Shown here piece after piece: positions 7,576 through 10,605 of a DNA stretch of 35,717 nt. A model generated the notes under the pieces. It did not search any database. It was given only the letters and a program-made list of their open reading frames with translations, and was not told the origin of the DNA. Position numbers and translations under genes: made by a program. The DNA is from Syntrophomonadaceae bacterium (lineage in GTDB: Bacteria > Bacillota > Dethiobacteria > DTU022 > UBA8154): the NCBI GenBank assembly GCA_007131175.1, contig SLRC01000137.1, positions 1 to 35,717 on the forward strand. The letters run 5' to 3'. The stretch's first letter is position 1, and each line of letters starts with the position of its first letter.

Positions 7576-7599
7576 AAAGTTGGAAAGTTGGAAAGTTGG
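7576..7599. repeat. Three perfect tandem copies of the octamer AAAGTTGG
   Basis: AAAGTTGG at 7576-7583, 7584-7591 and 7592-7599, in the fliK-flgD spacer. Confidence 0.97.
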
Positions 7600-7618
7600 C
7601 CAAATGGAGGTGTTTAGC

Positions 7619-8098
7619 ATGCCCATCGACGGGATAGCGGGTGGTTCCGGTGAACCGTACGGCAGCACGCAGGAGAGCAGAGTGGAAAACAAGGCCATGG
7701 ATATGGGGACAGAAACCTTTCTCAAACTGCTCGTAACCCAGATGAAATACCAGGATCCCTTTAGCGGGGGGCAGGATATGGGTGATTTCATGAGCCAGAT
7801 AGCCCAGTTTACCATGCTGGAGCGCGTTATCAAGCTGCAGCAGACGGTGGAAGACTTTGCTGCACAGCAGGCACCTGTGCAGTCCCTTAATCTGCTTAAC
7901 CGCACGGTGGAGGTAATGGACAGCCAGGGCCAGCTCCACCAGGGTGAGGTAACGGCGATCCGCTTTGAGGATGGGAAGCCTTTGCTTATGGTAAAGGGGC
8001 AGGAATATACCATGCAGGCCGTGCAGCGAGTAGAGGGCGTTGAAAGTAAAAGTAACCATGTACTAAATGACAGAGGCGGTGAAATGGATGATGTCTGA
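7619..8098 (+). CDS. flgD: Flagellar hook assembly scaffold protein FlgD
   Basis: 'ETFLKLLVTQMKYQDPFSGGQDMGDFMSQIAQFTMLERV'; preferred ATG at 7619 with GGAGG at 7606-7610; the track start at 7580 is a TTG inside the tandem repeat. Confidence 0.93.
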   Translation: MPIDGIAGGSGEPYGSTQESRVENKAMDMGTETFLKLLVTQMKYQDPFSGGQDMGDFMSQIAQFTMLERVIKLQQTVEDFAAQQAPVQSLNLLNRTVEVMDSQGQLHQGEVTAIRFEDGKPLLMVKGQEYTMQAVQRVEGVESKSNHVLNDRGGEMDDV

Positions 8099-8504
8099 CG
8101 GCGGGATTGGCAGGTCCCGGCTCCCCGGATTGGGAGAAGGGGTACCGACGGGCAGGCCTTCCCGGTCCCAAACAGACAAGGCCAGGGGATCGGAAGCCTC
8201 CGGAAATGATTTTGCAACGGTGCTGGGACAGCAACAGGTCCGGACACGGGAGATCAGCTTTTCCGCCCACGCCCGGCAGCGGCTGCAGGACAGGAGTATC
8301 GAGCTTGGACCGGAGGAAGTGGGAAAGCTGGCCCAGGCTGTGGACAAAGCGGCGGAAAAAGGATGCCGTGCTTCCCTGTTGCTTTATGGGGATATGGCTT
8401 TTGTGGCCGGGGTGGATAACCGCACAATCATTACAGCGTTGGATGGGCAAAGCATGAAGGAGCATGTCTTTACCAATATTGACAGCGCATTGATTGTGGA
8501 ATAA
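8067..8504 (+). CDS. Flagellar operon protein, TIGR02530-like
   Basis: 'ISFSAHARQRLQDRSIELGPEEVGKLAQAVDKAAEKGCRASLLLYGDMAFVAGVDNRTIITAL'; lies between flgD and flgE as this family does in Firmicutes. The start could be internal to the flgD overlap. Confidence 0.85.
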   Translation: MTEAVKWMMSDGGIGRSRLPGLGEGVPTGRPSRSQTDKARGSEASGNDFATVLGQQQVRTREISFSAHARQRLQDRSIELGPEEVGKLAQAVDKAAEKGCRASLLLYGDMAFVAGVDNRTIITALDGQSMKEHVFTNIDSALIVE

Positions 8505-8526
8505 AGATATTGTGGTAAAAACAAAA

Positions 8527-8656
8527 GGGCTGGACCTCCCCGCGAGGAAGCCCGGGGCTGTGGAATGAACGAAGCAGTCCGCCCGGTTTGTATAATTAAT
8601 GAGAAACCGGGACCTTGGGATTTATTTTCAGCGGTAAGATGGAGCTAAAGGAGGTC
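8527..8656 (+). promoter_or_regulatory. Candidate structured 5' leader of flgE
   Basis: GGGC(T)GGAC 8527-8535 pairs with GTCCGCCC 8577-8584; CCCCG 8538-8542 pairs with CGGGG 8553-8557; CCCGGTTT 8582-8589 pairs with AAACCGGG 8604-8611; GACCTCC 8533-8539 is the exact reverse complement of the SD GGAGGTC 8650-8656. Confidence 0.5.
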
Positions 8657-8664
8657 ATTAAAAG

Positions 8665-10605
8665 ATGATCAGATCTTTGTCAGCAGCAGTCTCCGGCTTG
8701 CGCAATCATCAAAACAAGCTGGACGTGGTGGGTAACAATATTGCCAATGTGAATACGGTGGGCTACAAATACAACACGGCTCTTTTCCAGGATATCTTCA
8801 GCCAAACAGTGCGGGGAGCCACCGCCCCCCAACCGGGCCAGGGGGGGATCAACCCTGTGCAGGTGGGCCTTGGAATGGGCCTTTCCTCCTCCACTCCCAT
8901 CCATACCCAGGGAGCCTTGACGAGCACGGGGCGGGAGTCGGACCTGGCAATCGAAGGACGGGGCTTTTTTGTGGTGAGTGACGGGGCACAAAACTACTTC
9001 ACCCGGGATGGTTCTTTTGTGCGGGACTCCTCCGGGGTTCTTGTTAATGCCAACGGGATGACCCTCATGGGATGGGTGCCCGTCCTTAACGATGATGGGG
9101 AAGAGGTTATCGACACATCCCAGCCCCTGAGCAGGATCAATATCCCCCTTGGGGAAGACACCATTGCCAAAGCAACTTCCATGATGGATTTTGCCGGGAA
9201 CCTGAATGCTGTTTTGGGACGGCCATCAAACCTCGTAATTGACGCCAATTCAGGGATTAACAAGGTCCTGGCCAGCGGTTTGCAGTTTGGCGATTATGAG
9301 ATAATTACGGAAGAAATGGCCGGGGGTGTGGATTATTCAGTAACTGCTTTACAGCAGTTTGTGCAGCACGAGGATCTGAACAGCTGGCTAGACGGCGCTG
9401 ATCCCGATGTGGATCCATCGAATATTAATGCATCAATGTTACTGGAAGTTGTGTCCAAAGACGGGGATTTGGTTACTTTCCGCCTTACATCACATCAGTA
9501 CAACAAAGACGGCTCTTATACAAAGCCTGAATCAATTACGTTTAGCGTGGACACTGAAGCAGATAACGAAACGGGTGACCAGGTAATAGGCGGGCTCACT
9601 TTCAGCGCCGGGCTTATTGGTGGTACTGCGGGGAGTGGAGCAAACTACACTGTTGGTGACAAAGTTGTTTTTGATGTAAAAGCTGAGGCGGTTGCCGGTG
9701 ATGATCTTGTTAGGGTAGGTTATGATTCCCCAGCTGCTGCCGGCTATGATATTAATGCCGAATGGGTTTTTGATGATGAAGCGATCAATGACAATACCAC
9801 AGTTTTACGCTTTTTCACCCTCGATTCCCGCGGCAACGTTTACGACGGTTTTACAACTTTGGGGGTTGACGAAATAGGCGATTCCACTTATCCCCATACC
9901 ACCTTTTCTTTTATGCTTGAAAACGAGTCCGCTTACGGCTACACGGCCTATGCGTATGATTCCCTGGGCAATCAGCACTTTCTGGATATTGTTTTTCAGA
10001 AAACGGATATAAATACGTGGGAATACACCATCAGCCATCCCGATCCAAACATTACGCTGAACGGGGCGACGGGGATCCTGGAGTTTAATGCCAGCGGCAG
10101 GCTGAGGGAAACCTCAACAATTAATGAGCTATTCTTTGATCCCAATAACGGGGCAGATATGGTGGAGTTTACCCCCGATTTCAGCATTGTTACCCAGTTG
10201 GTGGCGGACAGCAACGTGATCGCACGCCGGCAGGACGGCTTTGCCGCCGGGGAATTGGTGGCTTTTGAAATTCAGGCTACGGGGGTTGTTTCGGGTACGT
10301 ATACGAACGGGATGATCAAAGCGCTGGGGCAGGTGGCCATGGCCTCCTTTATCAACCCCGAAGGTTTGTTTAAAATAGGTGCAAACCTCTATGATGTCTC
10401 AGCCAACTCCGGTGATGCCCGTATCGGTTTACCCGGCGACCAGGGGCGGGGCCTGATCCAGGCCAGATCTCTGGAGATGTCCAATGTTGACCTTGCCAAT
10501 GAGTTTACGGAGATGATCACCACGAGCCGGGCTTTTCAGGCTAATTCCCGGGTAATCAGCACCTCCGATGAGGTGCTGCAGGAACTGGTTAATATTAAGC
10601 GGTAG
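8665..10605 (+). CDS. flgE: Flagellar hook protein FlgE
   Basis: 646 aa; N-terminal 'MIRSLSAAVSGLRNHQNKLDVVGNNIANVNTVGYK', C-terminal 'LEMSNVDLANEFTEMITTSRAFQANSRVISTSDEVLQELVNIKR'; SD AAAGGAGG upstream. Confidence 0.97.
   Translation: MIRSLSAAVSGLRNHQNKLDVVGNNIANVNTVGYKYNTALFQDIFSQTVRGATAPQPGQGGINPVQVGLGMGLSSSTPIHTQGALTSTGRESDLAIEGRGFFVVSDGAQNYFTRDGSFVRDSSGVLVNANGMTLMGWVPVLNDDGEEVIDTSQPLSRINIPLGEDTIAKATSMMDFAGNLNAVLGRPSNLVIDANSGINKVLASGLQFGDYEIITEEMAGGVDYSVTALQQFVQHEDLNSWLDGADPDVDPSNINASMLLEVVSKDGDLVTFRLTSHQYNKDGSYTKPESITFSVDTEADNETGDQVIGGLTFSAGLIGGTAGSGANYTVGDKVVFDVKAEAVAGDDLVRVGYDSPAAAGYDINAEWVFDDEAINDNTTVLRFFTLDSRGNVYDGFTTLGVDEIGDSTYPHTTFSFMLENESAYGYTAYAYDSLGNQHFLDIVFQKTDINTWEYTISHPDPNITLNGATGILEFNASGRLRETSTINELFFDPNNGADMVEFTPDFSIVTQLVADSNVIARRQDGFAAGELVAFEIQATGVVSGTYTNGMIKALGQVAMASFINPEGLFKIGANLYDVSANSGDARIGLPGDQGRGLIQARSLEMSNVDLANEFTEMITTSRAFQANSRVISTSDEVLQELVNIKR

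Follow-up and report, generated by a model that had tools for sequence, protein, structure and literature searches.

A conserved two-hairpin RNA upstream of the hook gene flgE co-occurs with the flagellar protein TIGR02530

Introduction

Autoregulatory mRNA leaders of the ribosomal-protein type carry small conserved hairpins that are bound by a protein. In Salmonella, the flagellar hook protein FlgE is reportedly under post-transcriptional control by assembly stage. About 120 copies of FlgE are used per hook (PMC4032328). For flagellin, three other arrangements have been described: CsrA and FliW control its synthesis in Bacillus subtilis (PMC6529632), its mRNA is localised in Campylobacter jejuni (PMC4894983), and FlbT has been proposed to bind the 5'UTR of its mRNA in Caulobacter and Brucella (reviewed in PMC4347634).

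Here we analysed the leader of flgE in a Syntrophomonadaceae bacterium, on a contig of 35,717 nucleotides (SLRC01000137.1, the window). The leader had been proposed to hold an RNA switch. We found a different structure, two adjacent hairpins, which is shared by many flagellated bacteria and accompanies an uncharacterised flagellar protein family known as TIGR02530. The results suggest that hook production is under a form of control that is widespread and apparently not yet described.

Results

The flgE leader and its two hairpins

The flagellar operon around the leader runs fliK, flgD, TIGR02530, flgE and onward. The features used below are as follows.

7580..8098, plus strand: flgD, hook cap protein (PF03963).
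8067..8504, plus strand: TIGR02530-family flagellar protein (PF12611), 96.9 bits against a curated cut-off of 83.2; the true start codon is uncertain.
8523..8585, plus strand: covariance-model match to the whole element (R1, E 6e-14; R2, E 7.3e-12).
8527..8553, plus strand: hairpin H1, with covariation across phyla; its pairs are kept in the genus except for one gap.
8533..8539, plus strand: GACCUCC, complement of the flgE Shine-Dalgarno sequence (SD), kept in close relatives and not family-wide.
8555..8580, plus strand: hairpin H2, with two-sided changes in 7/7 stem pairs among 100 distinct sequences.
8650..8656, plus strand: GGAGGUC, the flgE SD, seen in the sequence and invariant in the genus alignment.
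8665..10605, plus strand: flgE, hook protein, 646 aa, identified by relatives and FlgE-family matches.

The 160-nt gap between the TIGR02530 stop (8504) and flgE (8665) is non-coding, as the original prediction had it, and a sigma-70 consensus scan of the gap gave no promoter. The FlgE of the window is long. Residues ~184-420 form a variable insert that is missing from most relatives of the same family, whose FlgE frames are ~410-450 aa.

It is near certain that this leader contains a real, conserved structured RNA of about 55 nt at 8527-8580. H1 has the layout GGGC-UGGA-CCUC...GAGG-AA-GCCC, in which an outer stem (8527-8530/8550-8553) and an inner stem (8535-8538/8544-8547, loop 8539-8543) are separated by an asymmetric internal loop, UGGA (8531-8534) opposite AA (8548-8549). 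H2 is a 7-bp stem (8555-8561/8574-8580) closed by the 12-nt loop GGAAUGAACGAA (8562-8573), whose consensus is NGAMYGANNGAN and which holds three GA dinucleotides. This loop sequence would allow tandem sheared G.A/A.G pairs closing a hexaloop, MYGANN.

Several unpaired loop bases are conserved in sequence. In H1 the loop GG is invariant, as are A92 and G99 in the loop of H2, where G95 is kept in 99%. In H1, alignment positions G10, G11 and C13 are invariant and A12 is present in 89%. The inner stem of H1 varies freely with compensation (CUGC/GCAG, CCGC/GCGG, CUUAG/UAAG), and the first base of the H2 GGA is G in 46%, C in 30% and U in 25%.

FlgE neighbours from 60 relatives revealed a conserved module in the gap, GGGCYGGACCUCC-n-GAGGAAGCCC and, after it, a stem whose loop is GYGGAAYGANNGAAGC. 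Covariation was examined with covariance models R1, R2 and R3, built in successive rounds. A structure-free alignment of 14 leaders, made with MAFFT only, already showed strong covariation for the two adjacent hairpins. Among 100 distinct homologues, 97.0% of cells were paired and two-sided covariation was present in 14/15 pairs. The covariation score of these sequences was 0.650, beyond both the shuffled (0.205, sd 0.009) and the slid (at most 0.158) controls; this larger alignment leans towards the model because it was fitted to it, a bias of which the 14-leader result is free. After background correction, the nine top-ranked pairs by mutual information were all pairs of the model. The next signals, columns 90-101 and 91-100, lengthen the H2 stem into its loop, as the sheared pairs suggested above would.

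Three relatives of the same genus keep both H1 stems and the H2 stem; some pairs have changed in a compensatory way, and one gap is the only interruption. The conserved hairpins also appear in the minimum-free-energy fold of the window. Thermodynamics alone is weak evidence here, because the gap folds only mildly better than shuffled sequences (z = -2.04; 7/200 shuffles as good).

Gene context and distribution

The window's own genome has one copy of the RNA, at 8523..8585, by searches with R1 and R2. The element was found in 24/71 genomes of the window's order, and R2 matched 222/399 sampled genomes of its phylum. A scan of GTDB species gave 24 true copies in 21 contigs, with carriers that include Heliorestis, Paenibacillus nasutitermitis, Anaerovorax, Syntrophomonadaceae and Latescibacterota. 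A third group, entered through a record labelled uncultured proteobacterium, has a recognisable H1, and often H2, in most of its TIGR02530 leaders. In ten loci of that group (L204, L205, L207-L214), the conserved inner stem of H1 has another sequence (GGACCAAGGA...UCCAAGGGGGCC). About 20 pattern matches from other phyla fell below 22 bits and were judged to be chance. Plasmids contained no homologue of the window DNA or of TIGR02530.

The gene context is narrow. In a set of 149 distinct copies, TIGR02530 immediately precedes 130 (median 2 nt past the family match), and flgF or a first flgE paralogue precedes 17; of the other two, one lies at a contig end and one (L161) has a TIGR02530 frame visible upstream. 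Wherever the sequence extends far enough downstream, the start of a FlgE/FlgG-family gene comes next. Start codons lie a median of 36 nt (range 14-270) past the end of the model.

Some genomes have several copies. Where flgE paralogues stand in tandem (L062, L070 and L086; Anaerovorax and other Clostridia), each is preceded by its own copy. Extra copies are found between flgF and flgG, the distal rod gene, in L127, L130, L132, L134, L135, L138, L140 and L142, and also in L228, L234, L237 and L244.

No Rfam 15 family matched the window at its gathering threshold, the sole hit up to E 5 was at chance level on the opposite strand, and a search of 20 diverse loci gave no match on the element. The original prediction had likewise recognised no known riboswitch consensus. 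Our literature search returned nothing on TIGR02530 by name or on an RNA motif of flgE; subscription papers lay outside it, so priority is not assured. Two large RNA-motif discovery surveys mention no flagellar gene.

Co-occurrence with TIGR02530

TIGR02530 is present in 275/399 sampled genomes of the phylum. It was found in 221 of the 222 R2-positive genomes (Fisher p = 2.6e-58, a value that overstates independence because the genomes are related). Fifty-four TIGR02530 genomes had no R2 match. Nineteen of these were inspected by eye, and all 19 have a diverged element. R3 was used on the other 35 and matched 24 at E below 0.001 and 7 weakly; the weak cases belong to one genus, and of these two were checked and precede flgE, in one instance with TIGR02530 immediately upstream. 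R3 found no RNA in the remaining four TIGR02530-positive genomes (G250, G275, G382 and G363), in which it is either lost or too diverged. Altogether, by R2, R3 and inspection, 271 of the 275 TIGR02530 genomes carry the RNA, 7 of them weakly.

The reverse comparison used 79 sampled genomes that are negative for TIGR02530, 38 of which have FlgE/F/G genes. The RNA was found in none of these 38. R3 found nothing on 29 loci from TIGR02530-negative genomes (best E 2.6), some of these loci being flgF/G and not flgE. Of 64 Latescibacterota genomes, 8 encode TIGR02530; R3, although trained on no sequence from that group, detects the RNA in each of the 8 at E below 1e-11. One genome with a 410-contig assembly (G403) has a flgG-type copy and no detected TIGR02530. 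The protein was found in none of 14 control genomes, E. coli among them. In Desulfobacterota, Geobacter encodes a flagellar operon protein belonging to this Pfam family (DUF3766) beside flgD (PMC4033198). A homologue is also encoded in a phage record, MT835480.1 (37633-37977; Bacteriophage sp., human faeces), possibly a misassigned bacterial contig.

The AlphaFold model of the conserved domain of TIGR02530 is confident (pLDDT 86). Compared with the PDB, neither of two models matched a solved fold at E below 0.001. Remote resemblance consists of weak DUF4258 matches, the best at E 0.0034. A RelE/BrnT-like identity, hinted at by an F.HA..R motif and these matches, was not supported by the fold search. 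RNA binding by TIGR02530 is thus without structural support, since no solved fold matched and the DUF4258 lead stands alone.

Alternative stems and the anti-SD

The original prediction had drawn two mutually exclusive stems, A and B, that control masking of the SD by an upstream complement. It was right that the leader holds a genuine, conserved RNA of a regulatory type; its structure was drawn wrongly, and conservation supports H1 and H2 instead. The sequences it quoted, the arms of stem A and of stem B (8582-8589/8604-8611) included, are all present in the window at those positions. Neither stem is conserved even within the genus. In each of the three same-genus relatives, 2-3 pairs of stem A and 4-6 of the 8 pairs of stem B are broken, while H1 and H2 hold, and the switch was rejected. 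Stem A is made of pieces of the H1 and H2 helices with the wrong partners, and it is absent from the minimum-free-energy fold of the window.

The anti-SD is real in the window, where GACCTCC (8533-8539) is the exact complement of GGAGGTC (8650-8656), and the pairing has no mismatch in 3/4 genus members. It is not general. The run between the H1 arm and the SD averages 5.7 nt, compared with 3.7 for shuffled arms, and it reaches 6 nt or more in only 58/104 leaders. In the other 46 it is 5 nt or less, owing to changes in the H1 inner stem or, in some leaders, in the SD flank, and a universal anti-SD was rejected. Sequestration is weakened further as a general mechanism because compensated variants of the H1 inner stem cannot mask the SD. 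In some lineages the complementarity may act as a further layer; alternatively, it may be a by-product of a CCUC/GAGG stem that resembles an SD.

Discussion

We propose that the element is a cis-acting operator of rod and hook genes, acting on translation or on mRNA fate and recognised by the TIGR02530 protein (probability about 0.55). This reading was chosen because a generic stabiliser would not call for such specificity of sequence and gene context, and a typical metabolite riboswitch would not depend so closely on a single protein gene. The intercistronic RNA would mark the mRNAs of axial proteins of the rod/hook class: flgE, tandem flgE paralogues and, in some lineages, flgG. TIGR02530 would most likely read the UGGA/RR internal loop of H1 together with the GA-rich loop of H2. 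Binding just 5' of the ribosome-binding site would tune hook-protein translation or the fate of the message, plausibly in step with assembly of the hook-basal body, and the control could be repression or activation. The start codon is a median of 36 nt away, and in many genomes a protein sitting on the element would reach into the 30S footprint. For the flgG copies, which are not next to TIGR02530, recognition would have to be in trans. In the window's lineage, opening of H1 could additionally mask the SD, since the 5' arm of H1 is complementary to it.

Several observations sit less well with a TIGR02530 operator. Distances of up to 270 nt from RNA to start codon are a poor fit to simple SD occlusion, no RNA was found in four TIGR02530 genomes, and the G403 copy has no detected TIGR02530. 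The linkage could also reflect shared operon history, in which the protein and the element were parts of one ancestral flgE locus and do not interact. It seems unlikely to us that the element is a targeting signal, with TIGR02530 as adaptor, that carries rod and hook mRNAs to the export gate and couples their translation to secretion. Such a signal would agree with the restriction of the element to FlgE/FlgG-type export substrates, with the tolerated 14-270 nt to the start codon and with the localised flagellin mRNA of C. jejuni (PMC4894983); local control of translation would account equally well for the compact layout seen in many genomes. We also find it improbable that the element acts without a dedicated partner, as a processing or stability element that raises the flgE (and flgG) message over its operon neighbours. 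Its intercistronic position directly past a stop codon would fit, as would the need for hook protein in far more copies than its neighbours (PMC4032328), whereas conserved unpaired loop bases and dependence on TIGR02530 are unexpected for a generic stabiliser.

The GGA triplets had been taken to make a CsrA-type regulator conceivable. Among those listed in the original prediction, only the triplet at 8532-8534 is near-invariant, and CsrA is possible and not favoured. As an operator, the RNA would have CsrA dimers bound at the H1 and H2 GGA motifs to repress hook synthesis, with FliW-like relief. CsrA is present in 78/80 high-quality RNA-positive genomes, and the H1-loop GG is invariant, with its A at 89%. 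A CsrA site is a GGA in a hairpin loop, and the H1 GGA sits in an internal loop while the H2 GGA is not conserved; no conserved hairpin-loop GGA was found. Nor does CsrA occur wherever the element does. Two genomes of one family (f47; G110 and G347), both 99% complete, lack it and keep the RNA between TIGR02530 and flgE, which makes CsrA unlikely as the universal partner. Five relatives (G001, G004, G011, G017 and G020) have three CsrA-family matches each, and none was found in the window's own genome, an incomplete assembly. CsrA-FliW control of flagellin in B. subtilis (PMC6529632) offers a precedent; that species has CsrA and no TIGR02530. We hold a CsrA operator to be doubtful at best, with a secondary role for CsrA possible.

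A metabolite riboswitch governing hook and rod genes would explain the compact shape and strongly conserved loops, and the SD complementarity of some lineages could serve as its expression platform. We found an aptamer-like core conserved without a conserved platform, SD pairing being limited to 58/104 leaders. Zero metabolic gene contexts among 149 copies, no conserved alternative pairing, no conserved terminator, no Rfam match and near-strict dependence on one protein gene leave this reading very improbable. The switch between stems A and B, for which the stems and the 7-nt complement in the window speak, is almost certainly wrong, given that both stems are broken in all three same-genus relatives and that the anti-SD reaches 6 nt in 58/104 leaders only. 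Mapping a transcription start would be less decisive for it than had been assumed, because the element is intercistronic within a flagellar operon.

The RNA family, absent from Rfam, occurs in over half of the genomes sampled from the window's phylum, in Latescibacterota and in the third group. If the TIGR02530 operator is real, it gives a molecular handle on how hook and distal-rod output is matched to assembly, and assigns a function that can be tested to a flagellar protein family named by number alone. The conservation pattern points to the exact mutations for such tests.

The described systems that come closest are functional analogues; none is known to share the element. FlbT resembles TIGR02530 in that it too is a flagellar protein for which binding to the leader of a flagellar mRNA has been proposed. 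It differs in serving flagellin rather than the hook and in belonging to other phyla, and the review shows no conserved two-hairpin motif (PMC4347634). Salmonella FlgE is likewise reported (Bonifield 2000, cited in PMC4032328) to be a hook protein adjusted after transcription in response to assembly; neither an RNA element nor a partner from that system enters the comparison, and TIGR02530 is in 0/14 control genomes, including E. coli. Like leaders of the ribosomal-protein type, the element consists of small conserved hairpins adjoining the gene of the candidate binder, which here is encoded upstream of the element and not by the following gene. CsrA-FliW-Hag of B. subtilis and C. jejuni is also a case in which a small protein and a leader RNA control a flagellar structural gene post-transcriptionally. 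Compared with it, our element serves the hook and distal rod, has a much larger conserved structure, adjoins its candidate partner gene and also occurs in genomes without CsrA. Tentatively, and at a little short of even odds, we read TIGR02530 and its RNA as an old multi-phylum pair, in which the protein would read a two-hairpin code on flgE and flgG mRNAs and couple early export-substrate output to assembly, the rod/hook counterpart of FliW-CsrA control of flagellin.
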